This document shows, piece after piece, positions 21,682-31,343 of a stretch of 51,967 bases of DNA. Made by a program: the position numbers and the translations under genes. Below the pieces are notes generated by a model, which was not told the DNA's origin, ran no database searches, and saw only the letters and a list, made by a program, of their open reading frames with translations. Source of the DNA: Halobacteriovorax sp. GTDB taxonomy: Bacteria > Bdellovibrionota > Bacteriovoracia > Bacteriovoracales > Bacteriovoracaceae. Position 1 is the stretch's first letter. Each line of letters opens with the position of its first letter. The DNA lies in the NCBI GenBank assembly GCA_020048985.1, contig JAIFLR010000023.1, forward strand, positions 1 through 51,967. Direction: 5' to 3'.

Positions 21682-21713
21682 AGGTTGGTGGCCATGTTTA
21701 TGGCTTCCAACCT
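21682..21713. terminator. Hairpin between convergent genes, possible bidirectional terminator
   Basis: AGGTTGG (21682-21688) pairs with CCAACCT (21707-21713), and inside it GCCAT pairs with ATGGC around GTTT. It lies after the Cys-rich peptide stop and overlaps the last codons of the convergent gene. No T tract on either strand, so termination activity is uncertain. Confidence 0.4.
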
Positions 21714-22237
21714 CTGAGGATTAACTTTGAAGCAAGGTAGCGGCTATCTTTTGTCATCTGAAACAATTCGCTTAGAAGAGTCACTACATATAATTCTCGT
21801 CCAGAGGCCCATTCAAATGGTCCCTTCGGATAATTCACTCCAAACTTCATGGCGCGGTCGATATCTTTTTTTGAAGCGACATTTTCTTCTAAAGCATAGT
21901 GGGCTTCATTGATGATTTGCACGATGGTTCTAGGAAAAACAAAACCGCAGGAGACAATGGAAGTTTCAAACGGTTTAAACCCAAGCTCTTTAAGTTTAGT
22001 GATAAAAGCATCACTTGGCGCATTCAGATGAACTTCGACTTTTTTTTCTTCATCGCAAAAAAGTGCCGCAAAGGAGCCCTTTAAGTTAGGATATGCAGCA
22101 TAAAATTCTGCGGGATTATAACAAGTGAGATCCATGTAGATCTCTTTACCTGGGTTGGCCTTAAGGATTTCTTTTTTCTCTTCTTTAGTCCCGAATCCGA
22201 AATTAATGAGGATGTTATCAAATGTAACGTTAGTCAT
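21698..22237 (-). CDS. 3-hydroxyacyl-CoA dehydrogenase C-terminal-domain protein
   Basis: 179 residues from ATG 22237 (MTNVTFDNILINFGFG), overlapping the paaH-like stop by 8 bases. The C-terminal part (about 95-175: CGFVFPRTIVQIINEAHYALEE... MKFGVNYPKGPFEWA) matches the 3HCDH C-terminal dimerisation/substrate domain. The N-terminal part has no GxGxxG nucleotide motif, so it probably lacks NAD binding. It may be a second half-domain that completes or regulates the upstream dehydrogenase, or a decayed paralogue. A longer in-frame start to 22372 lies inside paaH and was rejected. Confidence 0.78.
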   Translation of the reverse strand: MTNVTFDNILINFGFGTKEEKKEILKANPGKEIYMDLTCYNPAEFYAAYPNLKGSFAALFCDEEKKVEVHLNAPSDAFITKLKELGFKPFETSIVSCGFVFPRTIVQIINEAHYALEENVASKKDIDRAMKFGVNYPKGPFEWASGRELYVVTLLSELFQMTKDSRYLASKLILRGWKP

Positions 22238-23093
22238 ACTTGTAAAATCCTCTTTTATTCTTACGTCCAAATCTCTTTTCTTCCACCATCTGTTTTTGGA
22301 GGGCATGAGGAGCAAAGCGGGCCTCCTTATTATAGGCTTCCCAAACGGAGCAGGTGACCGAATAATTAACATCTATACCAATGAGATCCATCAGTTCAAA
22401 TGGTCCCATTTTAAAACCACCGACTTCTTTTAGAATGCGGTCAACTTCCTTCATTTTTACTTCATCGTCTGTTTCCACAATTCGAAGTGGTTCACCATAG
22501 AAGTTACGTGCCACTCGGTTGACGATGAAGCCAGGGGAGTCTTTGCTCAGGGCCGGCTTCTTCTCTTTTGAGTCAAACCACTGATAGAGATCTTCACAGA
22601 GTTTACTGTCCGTTTCTTGGCCCTTGATCACTTCCACCAATTTCATAATTGTTGCAGGATTAAAAAAATGCAAGCCGATGAAACGAGATTTACGCTCTGG
22701 TGACACGGCTGTGGCCATTTCTGAAATTGGGAAACTTGAGGTATTTGAGGCAATGATGGTGTGAGGCGAAAAATAAGCATCGAGTTTTTTGAAAAGTTCT
22801 TTTTTGATCTCAAGGTTTTCAATGATGGCCTCGATTACGAGGTCAGTGTTTTTAGAAACTTGATCAAGAGTTTTAATCTCAAAAAGCTTCTTCATCTGAT
22901 TGACCTGGCAGCTTGTGAGCTTTTCTTTTTCTACAAGTTTGTCCCACGAAGAGTGAATACCAGCGAGGGCCTTCTTTAATTGCTCCTCAGAGGTGTCCAC
23001 CAGCTCTACAGAGCACATCTGCTGGGCAAACCATTGAGCGATGCCAGAACCCATGGTTCCGGCACCGATAACGACAATTCTTTGTAGATTCAT
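22230..23093 (-). CDS. paaH: 3-hydroxyacyl-CoA dehydrogenase
   Basis: NAD-dependent oxidation of a 3-hydroxyacyl-CoA to the 3-oxoacyl-CoA. 287 residues, the usual length for single-function enzymes of the PaaH/3-hydroxybutyryl-CoA dehydrogenase type. Rossmann motif VVIGAGTMGSGIAQ (residues 6-19), the catalytic region SNTSSFPISEMA and LHFFNPATIMKLVEV, and the C-terminal 3HCDH domain (about 190-287). It follows the PaaA-family gene by 2 bases. Assignment as PaaH rests on its neighbours; a butyryl-CoA type role is possible. Confidence 0.88.
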   Translation of the reverse strand: MNLQRIVVIGAGTMGSGIAQWFAQQMCSVELVDTSEEQLKKALAGIHSSWDKLVEKEKLTSCQVNQMKKLFEIKTLDQVSKNTDLVIEAIIENLEIKKELFKKLDAYFSPHTIIASNTSSFPISEMATAVSPERKSRFIGLHFFNPATIMKLVEVIKGQETDSKLCEDLYQWFDSKEKKPALSKDSPGFIVNRVARNFYGEPLRIVETDDEVKMKEVDRILKEVGGFKMGPFELMDLIGIDVNYSVTCSVWEAYNKEARFAPHALQKQMVEEKRFGRKNKRGFYKYD

Positions 23094-26242: not shown

Positions 26243-27004
26243 TTAGCCGAAACGCCCTTCAATGTAAGCCGCTGTACGCGCTTCTTTAGGGGTTTCAAAG
26301 ACGTCCTTGGTTTTACCCATTTCAACCAATTCACCCATATACATGAAGATGGTCTCATCAGAGACGCGTTTGGCCTGACTCATGGAGTGAGTCACAATGA
26401 GAATAGAGTAGTCTTTTTTAAGATCCTTAATCAGAATTTCAATCGCCTCAATACCGGCAGGATCAAGGGCAGAGCAGGGCTCATCTAAAAGAAGAAGTTT
26501 AGGTTTTAGTGGTAACAATCGAGCAATGCATAATCGTTGCTGTTTTTCGAGACTCAGAGTTAGTGCAGAACGGTTCAGTTGACCTTTAAGATCTTCCCAA
26601 AGCCCAACGCGCTTCAAAGATGTTTCAACCATTTCGTCTAGCTGCTTGTTCGTCAACTTGCGCATATGTGTTCTGGCACCAAAGATAACGTTCTCGTAAA
26701 TAGAAAGCGGAAGAGGATTTGGCTTCTGAAAGACCATTCCTACCTGACGGCGGAGTTCTGGTAGAGCAACTGTTGGGTGGTAGATATCATTACCCAAAAC
26801 TTGAATACTGCCTGAGTGAGAAACTTCACCTGCACGTTCATTGATTCGGTTTAAACATTTAAGATAAGTACTTTTTCCGCAACCACTTGGGCCGATAAGG
26901 GCAGTGATTTTGTAGGCAGAAATATTAAAGGTCAGGTCTTTTAGGGCCTGAAATTTACCATACCAAAAACTAAATTCATTCGTATTAACAACATCATTTC
27001 TCAT
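26243..27004 (-). CDS. pstB: Phosphate ABC transporter ATPase with altered signature motif
   Basis: 253-residue PstB-like ATPase. Walker A GPSGCGKST (38-46), Q-loop MVFQKPNPLP, Walker B LLLLDEP (about 170-176), D-loop SALD and H-loop H206 in VTHSMSQA are all normal. The ABC signature, however, reads LSLEK (150-154; bases 26557-26543) in place of LSGGQ, followed by the usual QQR. It is the last gene of the pst operon, 3 bases after its partner ATPase, which has a normal LSGGQ but other defects. Together they could form a heterodimer with one working ATP site. Confidence 0.93.
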   Translation of the reverse strand: MRNDVVNTNEFSFWYGKFQALKDLTFNISAYKITALIGPSGCGKSTYLKCLNRINERAGEVSHSGSIQVLGNDIYHPTVALPELRRQVGMVFQKPNPLPLSIYENVIFGARTHMRKLTNKQLDEMVETSLKRVGLWEDLKGQLNRSALTLSLEKQQRLCIARLLPLKPKLLLLDEPCSALDPAGIEAIEILIKDLKKDYSILIVTHSMSQAKRVSDETIFMYMGELVEMGKTKDVFETPKEARTAAYIEGRFG

Positions 27005-27007
27005 ATA

Positions 27008-27763
27008 TTACCCGAACACGCCTTCAATGTAGTCTTTAGTGCGCTTGTCTTTAATCTCACCAGCAAATATTTTTTGGTTCGTATCGAGATCAAGGATTTC
27101 ACCGTTAAGCATCATCGCTGTGCGATCACCAAGTCGTTTCGCCTGGTTGATCACGTTAGTTACCATAATAATGGTCATATCTTTTTTAAGTTCATGAAGA
27201 ACTGCTTCAATTTTCATCGTTGTCACTGGATCAATGGCGATTGAAAATTCATCCAGACATAATACTTCAGGGTGGTGAGAGAGTGCGCGTGCAATAGTCA
27301 GACGCTGCTGTTGCCCGCCCGAAAGTTTAGTCGCTAGAGTGTGGAGTCGGTCTTTCACTTCGTCCCAAAGCGCGGCTTTTTTCAGACAGTCCTCAAGGAT
27401 AAAATCAAGTTCCGCAGGGTCTTTACATCCGGCCATACGTGGAGCGTAAGTAACGTTCTCTTTAATGGTCATGGGGAGACCGACAGGAAGAGGGGACACC
27501 ATCCCAATTCTTCGTCTCAAAAAAGTTGAATCTTCATCTTCGAAAATATCCTGGCCGTCCAGAAGGATTTGCCCTTGAACTTTGACCTCATTATTAAAGT
27601 CTGTCATGCGGTTGATGCTTCTTAGGAGCGAACTCTTTCCAGAGTTTGCAGGACCGATGATTGCCAGGACTTCATTATGGTAAATATCTAAATTTAAGTT
27701 TTTTACTACAAGATTTTGCCCGTAGCTGATTTTAAGACCCTTAATTTCAATTTTCTTTTTCAT
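27008..27763 (-). CDS. pstB: PstB-like ATPase with degenerate Q-loop and H-loop
   Basis: 251 residues from ATG 27763 (MKKKIEIKGL), 1 base beyond the pstA stop region; the longer in-frame start lies inside pstA. Walker A GPANSGKSS and signature LSGGQQQR are intact. The Q-loop reads MVSPLPVGLP (residues 88-97), so the usual Gln is Pro91. Walker B is VLCLDEF, the D-loop is IAID, and the H-loop reads VTNVINQA with Asn203 where PstB has His. Such changes normally weaken hydrolysis at the site formed by this subunit's own Walker motifs. Complementary to the defect in the next gene. Confidence 0.9.
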   Translation of the reverse strand: MKKKIEIKGLKISYGQNLVVKNLNLDIYHNEVLAIIGPANSGKSSLLRSINRMTDFNNEVKVQGQILLDGQDIFEDEDSTFLRRRIGMVSPLPVGLPMTIKENVTYAPRMAGCKDPAELDFILEDCLKKAALWDEVKDRLHTLATKLSGGQQQRLTIARALSHHPEVLCLDEFSIAIDPVTTMKIEAVLHELKKDMTIIMVTNVINQAKRLGDRTAMMLNGEILDLDTNQKIFAGEIKDKRTKDYIEGVFG

Positions 27764-27764
27764 A

Positions 27765-28634
27765 TTACCACTTCCTCTTAGTACGGAAGTAAGTTCGAAG
27801 CACAACAGCAATTGAATTCACTGAGAGGATAAGCATGATCAATATAAGAGCTGTCGCAAATGGATAGGCTTCAGGAACACCAACTACCTGAGTTGAAATC
27901 GTAAATAGGTGCATGGAAAGAGTCATACACTGATCAAAAACACTTTGAGGCAAGAACGGGAGGTAGAATGCAACACCAGTGAATAGAATTGCAGCTGTTT
28001 CACCGGCAGATCTTCCAACTGCAAAAACTACACCCGTTAAAATACCAGGCAAAGAATTGGGAAGAACGATATGGCGGATAGTTTGTAGTTTGCTGGCCCC
28101 AACGTTCCAAGAAGCCTCACGGAATGAACGAGGAACTGCCTGCAGAGATTCTAGAGTTGAAGTGATGATAACTGGCAAGTTCATGACCGCTAATGTGAAT
28201 GAAGCGGCAAGAATACTGGTTCCCATTTTCATGAATAAAACAAAAGCGCCTAAACCAAAGAGAGCATGAACAATACTCGGAACACCAGCAAGATTCAGGA
28301 TCGCTAGGCGAATAACACGAGTCAGTTTGCCATCTTTGGCATATTCAGAGAGGTAAAGAGCAGCAAGAACACCAAGAGGACACGAGACCAAAACGCTGAT
28401 CATCACAAGCCAGAATGTCCCAACGATGGTGGGGAAAATCCCACCTGCGGTCATTCCATTAATTGGATCTTGAGTGAGGAAATCCCACGAAAGCACAGGG
28501 TATCCCTTGATGAATAACCAAAAAATAATTCCCAGGGCTGGCAAGAACAAGAAGAACGTCACCATACTGAGTGCATTCTTAAAGTTCTTTTCGCGAATTT
28601 CTTTGTTTAAAAGATGAATGCTTGGTTTAAACAT
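27765..28634 (-). CDS. pstA: Phosphate ABC transporter permease PstA
   Basis: Membrane subunit of the phosphate transporter. About 289 residues from ATG 28634 (MFKPSIHLLNKEIREK), 1 base after the pstC stop; an upstream in-frame start lies within pstC. Six hydrophobic segments and the BPD-type coupling loop (SFREASWNVGASKLQTIRHIVLPNSLPG, about 188-215, EAA motif) are present. Followed by the two ATPase genes. Confidence 0.95.
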   Translation of the reverse strand: MFKPSIHLLNKEIREKNFKNALSMVTFFLFLPALGIIFWLFIKGYPVLSWDFLTQDPINGMTAGGIFPTIVGTFWLVMISVLVSCPLGVLAALYLSEYAKDGKLTRVIRLAILNLAGVPSIVHALFGLGAFVLFMKMGTSILAASFTLAVMNLPVIITSTLESLQAVPRSFREASWNVGASKLQTIRHIVLPNSLPGILTGVVFAVGRSAGETAAILFTGVAFYLPFLPQSVFDQCMTLSMHLFTISTQVVGVPEAYPFATALILIMLILSVNSIAVVLRTYFRTKRKW

Positions 28635-28635
28635 A

Positions 28636-29568
28636 TTATTTCTTTCTTCCACGGATAAGGTAATCCGCTGAAACGTTTACGATAAATGAAAGAATAAAAA
28701 GTACGAGGCCAATTGCAAAAAGGGCCTGATAGTGTTCTCCGCCTTTTGGAGACTCACCCAACTCGGCAGCGATTGTTGCTGTTAGTGTTCTCGCAGGATC
28801 AAACAAACTATGAGGAATTTGAATAGAGTGACCAGTTGCCATGAGAACTGCCATGGTTTCACCCAAAGCGCGTCCAACTCCTAAAAGTGCTGCCGCCATA
28901 AGACCATTTTTGGCAGCCGGAAGCAGAACTCGAGTGGCCACTTCCCATTTCGTTGCACCCATCGCTTCTGCTGCTTCTCTATAAGTCTCAGGCACTGCTC
29001 TAAGAGCGTCCTCTCCAACCGAAACAATCAGCGGCAAGGACATAAGGGCCAAAATAATAGAGGCGTTAAGAATATTGAGACCAATTGGAACATCAAAACC
29101 ATGAATGATGAGCGGGTTAATCATCATAATGGCAATGAAACCCCAAACAACTGAAGGGATCGCTGCCAGAAACTCAATCAAGATTTTGTAAATCTCTCTG
29201 AACTGGGGCGAACAAAATTCAGAAATATAAAAGGCACAGGCCAGACCTAGTGGAACAGCAATTAGCATCGATATGATTGTGACACTGACTGTTCCAACAA
29301 AAAGAGCAAGTATTCCATAAGTCACGTTTGAAACAGAAGCTGGATTCCAGGCTGTAGAAGAGAAGAATTCTACAAAGTCAAAACGACCGACAAGGAAAGG
29401 AAAAGATTCCTTTAAAATAAAAAACAAGATCGCAACGATAAGAAAAATGGAACTGAATCCGCCAGCTTTAATGGTGAATTCAATTATCTTTTCAGATGTT
29501 GGTTTGGTGCTTTTTTTCTTTCTCCACTCCATCGCTAGAGCAGGCGTTTGTTCTAACTTCATTTCCAT
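28636..29568 (-). CDS. pstC: Phosphate ABC transporter permease PstC
   Basis: 310-residue permease with about six membrane segments and an EAA loop (TYREAAEAMGATKWEVATRVLLPAAKNG, about 208-235). Long hydrophilic N-terminus (about 30 residues) before the first helix. Lies 2 bases after pstS and 1 base before pstA. Confidence 0.95.
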   Translation of the reverse strand: MEMKLEQTPALAMEWRKKKSTKPTSEKIIEFTIKAGGFSSIFLIVAILFFILKESFPFLVGRFDFVEFFSSTAWNPASVSNVTYGILALFVGTVSVTIISMLIAVPLGLACAFYISEFCSPQFREIYKILIEFLAAIPSVVWGFIAIMMINPLIIHGFDVPIGLNILNASIILALMSLPLIVSVGEDALRAVPETYREAAEAMGATKWEVATRVLLPAAKNGLMAAALLGVGRALGETMAVLMATGHSIQIPHSLFDPARTLTATIAAELGESPKGGEHYQALFAIGLVLFILSFIVNVSADYLIRGRKK

Positions 29569-29570
29569 AA

Positions 29571-30434
29571 CTACTTTTTAGGTACAGGCACGTAACCTGA
29601 TTTTAAAATGATTACTTTTGCAGCTTCACCTTGAGTCCAATCCATATAAGCCTTTACAGCTACTGATGGCTCACCAGAAGTGTACATGTAAAGCTCTCTG
29701 GCAATTGGATAAGATTTATCGGTTGCTGTCTCAATAGTTGGAAGAACGCATTTTCCGTCAGCAGTAGTTACACATAGAGCTTTTACGTTTTTATTAAGGT
29801 AACCCATGCCAGAATAACCGACGGCACATGGAGTTTTTTCGACAAGATCAATTGATTCACGAGAACCATTTAGGTCCATTGAACCTGTTTTAAAGTCACG
29901 CTTCTCTCCTAGAACTGCTTCACGGAAATATTGATAAGTTCCAGAGTTTGATTGACGAGAAATTCGGATGATTTTGTTGTCTTTGCAACCAGGAACAACA
30001 GTTCCTCTAACGTCACTCCAAGTATCACATTTACCACCCTCACCGTAGATACAAGCGATTTCTTCGAGGCTTAATCCTGTAAGTGGGTTTGCAGGGTGTA
30101 CAAATACTGCCAGAGCATCCAAGCCAACAATAAATTCTTTAATTGTTTTACCATTGTTTTTAAGTGCCGCTTCTTGTTCTTCAGCTTTCATTTTTCTTGA
30201 AGAGTTTGCAATATCCACAGTTCCATTGATGAGGGCCGCAATACCAGTACCTGAACCGCCACCCGAGACTGCGATAACAACTTTAGGTTCAACTTTTCTG
30301 TATTCTTCTGCCCATGCTTGCGCCAAGTTCACGATAGTATCTGAACCTTTATTTTGGATCACAATGTGTTCTCTTTTTGAACAGCCGACCAGAGTGAAAA
30401 CGAGGGTTGAAAACAGTGCTAGTGTTGTGCGCAT
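29571..30434 (-). CDS. pstS: Phosphate-binding lipoprotein PstS
   Basis: 287-residue periplasmic phosphate receptor. Signal with lipobox LVGC (Cys about 18), so it is membrane-tethered. Phosphate-binding segments of the family are visible: NKGSDTIVNLAQAWAEEY, SGGGSGTGIAALINGTVDIANSSR and RQSNSGTYQYF. First gene of pstS-pstC-pstA-pstB-pstB; no phoU or phoB/phoR is in the window. AAGGAC precedes the ATG. Confidence 0.95.
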   Translation of the reverse strand: MRTTLALFSTLVFTLVGCSKREHIVIQNKGSDTIVNLAQAWAEEYRKVEPKVVIAVSGGGSGTGIAALINGTVDIANSSRKMKAEEQEAALKNNGKTIKEFIVGLDALAVFVHPANPLTGLSLEEIACIYGEGGKCDTWSDVRGTVVPGCKDNKIIRISRQSNSGTYQYFREAVLGEKRDFKTGSMDLNGSRESIDLVEKTPCAVGYSGMGYLNKNVKALCVTTADGKCVLPTIETATDKSYPIARELYMYTSGEPSVAVKAYMDWTQGEAAKVIILKSGYVPVPKK

Positions 30435-30536: not shown

Positions 30537-31343
30537 ATGCTGCAGGACATCGCTAGCCTTTATTCTCAAATGGTTAGCTACGATATAATTATTCTTTGTT
30601 TGGCCTCTTTTGGGGCAGGATTCGTCGATTCCGTCGTTGGCGGGGGTGGACTGGTTCAATTGCCGGCCCTGATGATGGTTCTTCCACAATATCCAGTGGT
30701 CACCTTGCTTGGAACTAACAAGCTCGTTTCGGTCACCGGAACTGGTTTTTCGGCCTGGCGTTTTTCCCGCCATATTCCGTTTATTCGAACCATTATCATT
30801 CCTGCTATCTTATCGGCATTTTTGTTTTCATTTCTTGGGGCCTACACGGTTTCAATTGTAAGTAACGAATTTCTTAAGCCGCTGTTTATGGTGCTGTTAT
30901 TTTGTGTTTTTGTTCTTACCATTCGTAATAAAAATTTTGGCCTTTTGGACCATGATCCTAATTTAGTCATCCCTGTATGGAAGCCAATAGTGATTGGTTC
31001 ACTCTTGGGCTTTTATGACGGTTTTTTTGGTCCAGGAACTGGGACCTTTTTGATCATCGCTTTCGTCGGGATGTTAGGTATGACTTTTGTGCAAGGGTCG
31101 GCTTACGCAAAAATTATTAATCTGACCACGAATCTCGCGGCACTCTTATTGTTCATGTTCAAGGGAACTTTCCTATTTGAATATGCAGTTCCCATGATTA
31201 TTTTTAATGTATTAGGAGCAGTTGTGGGAGTGAGGCTGGCCCTCTTAAAAGGTAATACCTTTGTCAGAGGGCTCTTGCGAATTATTGTTTTGCTTACGAT
31301 TCTAAAATTGGGCCATCAGATCGCAGTGGAGTATTTTTTTTAA
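30537..31343 (+). CDS. TSUP (TauE/SafE) family membrane permease
   Basis: 268 residues, about eight hydrophobic segments in two repeats. Family motifs: GFVDSVVGGGGLVQLPALM (about 23-41), LGTNKLVSVTGTGFSAWRF (about 58-76) and GFYDGFFGPGTGTFLI (about 158-173). Such proteins move sulfite, sulfoacetate or similar small anions. Divergent from pstS with the Pho-box-like repeat between them, so it might be a phosphate-linked anion exporter, but this is speculative. Converges on the HPPD gene with a 4-base overlap of stops. Confidence 0.88.
   Translation: MLQDIASLYSQMVSYDIIILCLASFGAGFVDSVVGGGGLVQLPALMMVLPQYPVVTLLGTNKLVSVTGTGFSAWRFSRHIPFIRTIIIPAILSAFLFSFLGAYTVSIVSNEFLKPLFMVLLFCVFVLTIRNKNFGLLDHDPNLVIPVWKPIVIGSLLGFYDGFFGPGTGTFLIIAFVGMLGMTFVQGSAYAKIINLTTNLAALLLFMFKGTFLFEYAVPMIIFNVLGAVVGVRLALLKGNTFVRGLLRIIVLLTILKLGHQIAVEYFF

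Follow-up and report, generated by a model that had tools for sequence, protein, structure and literature searches.

Two adjacent PstB paralogues with complementary motif losses in a Halobacteriovorax pst operon and under many phylum labels: a candidate heterodimer with one working ATP site

The Pst system, the textbook example of high-affinity phosphate import, is assumed to run on a pair of identical PstB subunits. Among ATP-binding cassette (ABC) machines, asymmetric heterodimers with one degenerate ATP site are known from exporters such as TAP, CFTR, TM287/288, BmrCD, and TmrAB, in which membrane and ATPase domains are joined in one chain. Here, we describe a stretch of 51,967 nucleotides from Halobacteriovorax sp. 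(contig JAIFLR010000023.1, assembly GCA_020048985.1), hereafter the window, whose pst operon encodes two adjacent PstB paralogues, A and B (253 and 251 amino acids, respectively, from the translated open reading frames), carrying complementary motif changes.

The best match of both A and B in the PDB is E. coli PstB, and a Foldseek search matched the entries 9k3x and 9k3s with target TM-scores of 0.96 and 0.91. The E. coli PstSCAB complexes (9k3x, 9k3y, 9k3s) have the same fold and operon partners as the paralogues of the window. They contain PstB of one sequence, with four chains in two entries and two chains in one, and all its motifs are intact (Gln replaces the Walker B Glu in 9k3s), whereas the window encodes two diverged proteins, 37% identical to each other, with complementary losses. 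According to the authors of a study on Enterococcus faecalis, no published work had asked how much each of two tandem pstB paralogues contributes (PMC12096839). Our own search of the open-access literature did not find paired PstBs with complementary defects described.

Complementary motif changes and their conservation

Protein A has an intact Walker A motif (GPSGCGKST), Q-loop VFQKP (Q93), LLLDEPCSALDP (E175), and H-loop VTH (H206), and its signature reads LSLEK (residues 150-154), with Glu153 instead of the second Gly of LSGGQ. Protein B keeps the signature LSGGQ (147-151), the Walker A Lys, and the catalytic Glu, and is changed in the Q-loop, VSPLP, with Pro91 for Gln, and in the H-loop, VTN, with Asn203 for His. 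Its Walker B/D-loop stretch reads LDEFSIAIDP, against LDEPCSALDP, and the catalytic Glu is retained. An initial annotation of the window had described A as normal in Walker A, Q-loop, Walker B, and H206 with an LSLEK signature, and B as normal in LSGGQ with Pro at the Q-loop, Asn203 at the H-loop, and an odd Walker B tail and D-loop; every residue checked proved correct.

Conservation was assessed in 96 complete pairs from 96 loci, comprising 21 pairs of the window's genus, 6 of other genera of its order, and 69 pairs from distant loci; L051 and L052 are nearly identical to each other, as are L105 and L108. The first search for relatives covered 38 genomes, including the window's own and 23 others of the genus. 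For the distant loci, genome contigs were scanned with the profile of B and the best 80 of at least 586 stretches were kept; all 80 contain B, and A lies directly behind it in 77, the loci L055, L065, and L071 having B without A and each ending at a contig end. Eight loci (L040-L047), in which A and B are identical to genus pairs already counted and show the same motifs, were excluded, as were L134, where B lies at a contig end, and L148, where B is partial. The 266 PstB open reading frames that were found include duplicates from the same genome, and the counts below use the 96 complete pairs instead.

In all 96 pairs, A retains the Gln, the His, and the catalytic Glu and has a Glu at the fourth signature position, the commonest forms being LSLEE (34), LSLEK (25), LSLEQ (17), and LTLEQ (9), with rarer others. 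In the same 96 pairs, B retains SGGQ, the Walker A Lys, and the catalytic Glu and has lost both the Gln and the His, the Q-loop position being Pro in 88 and Ala in 8, and the H-loop position always Asn. The canonical PstBs in the same motif table are intact at all these positions (15/15). The changes were found in 21/21 complete pairs of the genus (19 read first and two more) and in 75/75 outside it. The co-conservation that the initial annotation had suggested as a check is borne out, and its caveat that the changes might not be conserved in close relatives is contradicted by the genus pairs. Since the same defects recur in every pair, a private oddity of one metagenome-assembled genome (MAG) is ruled out.

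The tree records carry the labels of 14 phyla besides the window's order, although any one label might stem from an error in a MAG; they include Acidobacteriota, Gemmatimonadota, Planctomycetota, Pseudomonadota, Omnitrophota, Hydrogenedentota, Elusimicrobiota, and Ignavibacteriota. Going beyond the initial annotation, the pair is old, is found under many phylum labels, and is no peculiarity of the Bdellovibrionota, and the altered positions are themselves conserved. As a separate observation, a Poribacteria MAG encodes, at L049:8049-8852 behind a PstC-like open reading frame, a third PstB-like ATPase with GPANSGKST, LSIGQ, and ATN, which is neither A nor B.

Because the distant loci had been chosen by B's motif, a control was made in which 99 evenly drawn Planctomycetota genomes were searched with the neutral family TIGR00972 instead. 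Tandem PstBs were present by coordinates in 14 genomes, and in G263 the pair is cut by a contig end; G156 and G158 among these 15 were already known, and the other 13 pairs were fetched and read. Complementary changes occur in all 13: the fourth signature residue of A is Glu in 11 and Asp in 2, and B has Asn together with either Pro or Ala. Each of these A proteins shares 59-81% identity with its closest counterpart among the 96. The motif GPANSGK varies among them (GPAGSGK, GPASSGK, GPARSGK, and others). The same outcome from a neutral search, with GPANSGK not fixed, excludes an artefact of picking loci by the IGPANSGK motif of B. Of the single PstBs found in these Planctomycetota genomes, 36 were fetched and read; the Q-loop Gln and the His are kept in 36/36 and SGGQ in 35, and the single PstB at L180:1501-2346 has LSIGQ (SIGQ) for LSGGQ, its remaining motifs being intact.

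The pst locus and the absence of a canonical PstB

The two paralogues correspond to two minus-strand open reading frames that match exactly the coordinates in Table 1. The gene order on that strand is pstS, pstC, pstA, B, and A, so that B, the gene with LSGGQ, is transcribed first, right after pstA, and A, the gene with LSLEK, last; the order pstC-pstA-B-A is kept in distant loci with enough flank. TIGR00972, the NCBIfam equivalog family of PstB (curated cut-off 343.2), is the top NCBIfam match of both A and B, though both score under this cut-off. The genes pstS, pstC, and pstA are co-encoded, all three above their NCBIfam cut-offs, and the full catalytic motif set expected of one PstB subunit is found in neither A nor B. 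With PstB as the top-scoring family for either gene, routine annotation probably gives both a PstB-like name, and the asymmetry goes unnoticed.

Table 1. Genes of the pst locus and motif positions of the two PstB paralogues in the window
Feature	Position	Strand	Remark
pstS phosphate-binding protein	29571..30434	-	TIGR02136 221 bits, above cut-off
pstC permease	28636..29568	-	TIGR02138 283 bits, above cut-off
pstA permease	27765..28652	-	TIGR00974 252 bits, above cut-off
PstB paralogue B (PstB-b)	27008..27763	-	TIGR00972 289.2 bits, under cut-off
PstB paralogue A (PstB-a)	26243..27004	-	TIGR00972 326.0 bits, under cut-off
B Walker A GPANSGKSS	27629..27655	-	variable elsewhere (GPAGSGK, GPASSGK etc.)
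B Q-loop Pro91 (canonical PstB: Gln)	27491..27493	-	Pro 88, Ala 8 of 96
B signature LSGGQ (147-151), intact	27311..27325	-	SGGQ 96/96
B H-loop Asn203 (canonical PstB: His)	27155..27157	-	Asn 96/96
A Walker A GPSGCGKST	26867..26893	-	read from translation
A Q-loop Gln93, intact	26726..26728	-	Gln 96/96
A signature LSLEK	26543..26557	-	Glu 96/96 complete pairs; Glu 11 / Asp 2 in 13 further
A H-loop His206, intact	26387..26389	-	His 96/96

The junction between B and A is in frame across the stop codon in 46 of the 123 loci holding both genes (duplicates included) and in another frame in 74, for which reason it looks like ordinary close spacing and not read-through. Around the operon, a TauE/SafE-family permease gene lies at 30537-31343, divergent from pstS, and two overlapping minus-strand open reading frames at 22230-23093 and 21698-22372 resemble, as judged from the list of open reading frames, a 3-hydroxyacyl-CoA dehydrogenase and another, separate piece of such a protein.

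A survey of the order covered 129 genomes, the pair being called by coordinates and a canonical PstB by a match over the TIGR00972 cut-off. The tandem pair is present in 27 genomes, namely 21 of the genus and G095, G100, G110, G129, G131, and G132, and no PstB over the cut-off was found in any of these 27. Conversely, the pair is missing from all 48 genomes of the order in which a PstB scores over the cut-off; no p-value is given for this split, the genomes being related. The window's genome, 91.6% complete, has no PstB match over the cut-off, and G016, a single contig that is 98% complete, has only the pair. Among genus members without a full pair, G018, G020, and G021 have fragments or one copy, and G004 and G010 have none. 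The third-best TIGR00972 match in the window's genome (C32:17288, 220.8 bits) was considered as a canonical PstB and rejected; judged from its sequence, this 249-residue protein is an ABC ATPase of the amino-acid type. In the window's order, the pair replaces the canonical PstB rather than supplementing it.

Outside the order, the genomes of 50 of 72 distant loci were searched (E-value 1e-70, with coordinates; completeness was not stated), and 27 of the 50 hold a pair or pairs only, 26 of them one pair and G174 two. The initial annotation had named a canonical PstB elsewhere, serving PstC and PstA alone, as what would speak against its proposal. No such gene over the cut-off was found in the window's genome or in the other pair-bearing genomes of the order, where this possibility is rejected; beyond the order the picture is mixed. 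In the Magnetococcales genome of L087, the two separate tandem pairs were recognized by coordinates (G174:C45 and G174:C35), and motifs were read in one of them.

These data bear on an explanation by decay, in which at least one of the two genes is a drifting duplicate and import proceeds through another PstB or other phosphate transporters. Canonical motifs are indeed lost in both A and B, and the window's genome encodes a Na/Pi cotransporter. However, both genes are under strong purifying selection, with ratios of nonsynonymous to synonymous substitution (dN/dS) of about 0.01-0.04 in four species pairs, some of the synonymous distances being near saturation. The altered positions are fixed (Glu in A and Asn in B, each in every complete pair), and no pair genome of the order offers another PstB over the cut-off. 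Such conservation makes decay very unlikely.

In a second explanation, the complex chiefly senses phosphate and imports it slowly if at all, and its asymmetry tunes signalling, for example, to PhoU/PhoR, instead of transport. Within the order, PhoU accompanies the canonical PstB, with at least two PhoU-domain matches in 47 of the 48 genomes that have a PstB over the cut-off (G044 has none), while the genus genomes show at most one: exactly one in 25 of 26, and none in G015. Of these 25 matches, the 23 listed lie in frames of 460-583 amino acids, and the sole match in the window's genome (G000:C68:13179-14471) falls inside the 561-residue frame of the Na/Pi cotransporter. No two-domain PhoU was found in the 26 genomes of the genus, from which both the PhoU regulator and the canonical PstB thus seem to be missing. 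Order genomes with neither kind of PstB mostly have none or one PhoU-domain match as well, so that the scarcity of PhoU is not specific to the pair, and the PhoU pattern tracks the canonical PstB, not the pair.

In the distant genomes, PhoU matches are present in 47/50, some of them behind A. At L053, the gene between pstS and pstC encodes a PhoU-domain protein, and matches are similarly placed in other genomes, which would suit a sensor. The product of this gene of the Gemmatimonadales pair locus (L053:3129-4199) matches PhoU twice and, weakly and at its C-terminus, low-molecular-weight phosphatases (17.4 bits, under the cut-off of 23.2). Against a sensor stands the preservation of one fully canonical site, which a mere sensor would not need, and the pair is the only PstB found in all 27 pair genomes inside the order and in 27/50 outside it. 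A phosphate-selective porin O/P family gene downstream of the pair in the same distant locus (L053:7796-8944) was counted in favour of the Pst reading. We consider a predominantly sensory role improbable.

A putative A-B heterodimer and its history

It is established that each ABC site is built from the Walker motifs, Q-loop, and H-loop of one subunit and the signature of its partner (passages of PMC7756269). Under this motif logic and given the strict co-conservation of the changes, the explanation we regard as clearly the best, and likely correct, is a Pst importer with an obligate A-B ATPase heterodimer and one working ATP site. In such a dimer, the Walker A and B motifs, Q-loop, and His of A would face the LSGGQ of B and form one fully canonical hydrolytic site, and the Walker motifs of B, lacking the Q-loop Gln and the His, would face the LSLEx of A and form a non-canonical site that would at most bind nucleotide, with little or no hydrolysis. 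A-A or B-B homodimers would contain faulty sites only. Import would then be driven by one hydrolysing site per cycle, the other serving as a held or slowly opening hinge. The loss of own-site motifs by one subunit and of the signature by its partner, seen in 96/96 and again in 13/13 pairs, supports the asymmetric dimer with one canonical and one dead site that the initial annotation had proposed. Purifying selection on both genes, the shared gene order, the separate clades of A and B, and the lack of a PstB over the cut-off in pair-bearing genomes of the order also speak for it. Heterodimer assembly, hydrolysis at one site, transport, and phosphate as the substrate are predictions that we draw from sequence.

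Two homodimers, A2 and B2, might instead act on the same permeases with separate jobs, B2, for example, in slow transport and A2 in regulation. There is precedent for tandem pstBs that are functionally unequal in E. faecalis, where excess PstB2 replaces PstB1 (PMC12096839, in the passages concerned). Yet A2 would lack LSGGQ, and B2 would lack the Q-loop Gln and the His at either site, and both sets of losses co-occur in every complete pair read, which leaves this arrangement quite improbable.

A further elaboration of the heterodimer is tentative and, in our opinion, rather doubtful as a whole: the idle site may be a designed hinge and no relic, in which the acid of A would sit at the usual γ-phosphate clamp of B's nucleotide and might pair with the conserved Walker A Lys of B, so that this half would remain shut, either empty or with a nucleotide that does not exchange. 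One ATP would then be spent per phosphate, and this economical arrangement would have a single origin, followed by spread to many phyla.

In a tree of 113 rows, A forms one clade and B another, with Shimodaira-Hasegawa-like approximate likelihood-ratio (SH-aLRT) support of 99 and 95, respectively, and their inner branching is similar by eye. When the motif columns were removed (134 rows, 169 columns), A and B still each formed one side of a branch, with support of 92 and 95; both trees were quick ones, made without bootstrap. Because the clades persist without these columns, convergence of the motifs is an unlikely cause of them. The simplest history would be one duplication, complementary loss, and then joint inheritance together with transfer. 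In the eight pairs with Ala at the Q-loop, the Walker B of B still reads DEP, from which it follows that the losses of His and Gln and the signature change probably preceded the DEF and D-loop changes. The coupling helices of PstA and PstC also differ between pair and canonical systems, the PstA helix having a majority of about REAcWnmGAtrwQTIr in pair systems and being REAGLALGLPRWKV-like in most canonical ones of the order, a difference not separable from common descent.

Several points weigh against the obligate heterodimer. It is proposed here from sequences, no complex having been observed, and the genomes are mostly MAGs; the distant loci were found through the motifs of B, as the best 80 of at least 586 stretches. 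Outside the order, 23/50 genomes also hold a further PstB-like gene, so that the pair is not the sole option there. B keeps its catalytic Glu and Walker A Lys in 96/96 pairs, and its site may therefore keep some activity. Support for A in the motif-free tree lies under the 95 mark, and the correlation between A and B distances, in itself a point in favour (r 0.82 over 77 pairs, against at most 0.25 in 1000 permutations), is expected for any neighbouring genes inherited together. AlphaFold2 was run on an artificial single chain B-A with the stop codon of B read as Gly, first using the window's pair (22 rows) and then the pair of L083, joined by a longer linker (13 rows). The folds were good, with a mean predicted local distance difference test (pLDDT) of 89 and 83, and both halves were folded and unpaired, the domains not being placed against each other (predicted TM-score, pTM, 0.52 twice). 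Among the Foldseek matches listed for the model, E. coli PstB covers about half of the chain at a root-mean-square deviation (rmsd) of 1.3-2.0, and chains with two ATPase domains align only at an rmsd of 22 Å or more.

If the heterodimer is real, an old and widespread Pst with a single working ATP site would change what phosphate uptake is assumed to cost many environmental bacteria in ATP. Such an importer, with separate, small, and singly mutable subunits, would also allow tests of the long-standing question of why ABC machines keep a conserved degenerate site.

Comparison with known asymmetric and tandem ABC systems

The tandem PstB1 and PstB2 of E. faecalis are, like A and B, adjacent and diverged proteins of one pst operon, and deletion showed their roles to be unequal; as far as the passages of PMC12096839 describe them, both have standard motifs and no degenerate site, whereas A and B are each altered. 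The canonical motifs that mark both paralogues of the Firmicute tandem type are thus not shared by A and B. For Bacillus subtilis, a mixed dimer of PstBA and PstBB has been modelled, on which the passages of PMC11466899 mention no degenerate sites.

RbsA and NupO are importers with one degenerate ATP site, as is proposed for the A-B pair; according to the passages of PMC11466899, they are Type II importers that, unlike A and B, hold both halves in one protein and have lost the Walker A Lys of the second half. The asymmetric exporters, like the proposed A-B dimer, have one canonical and one degenerate composite site through complementary losses, with conserved degenerate positions, and in them the Walker B Glu is replaced, often together with changes in the H-loop (as described in the passages of PMC7756269). 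The pair of the window and its relatives differs in how the second site is altered: the loss of the catalytic Walker B Glu typical of the exporters is not seen, the Glu being kept in B in 96/96 pairs, the Gln and His are lost instead, and the second signature Gly of the partner is replaced by Glu or Asp.
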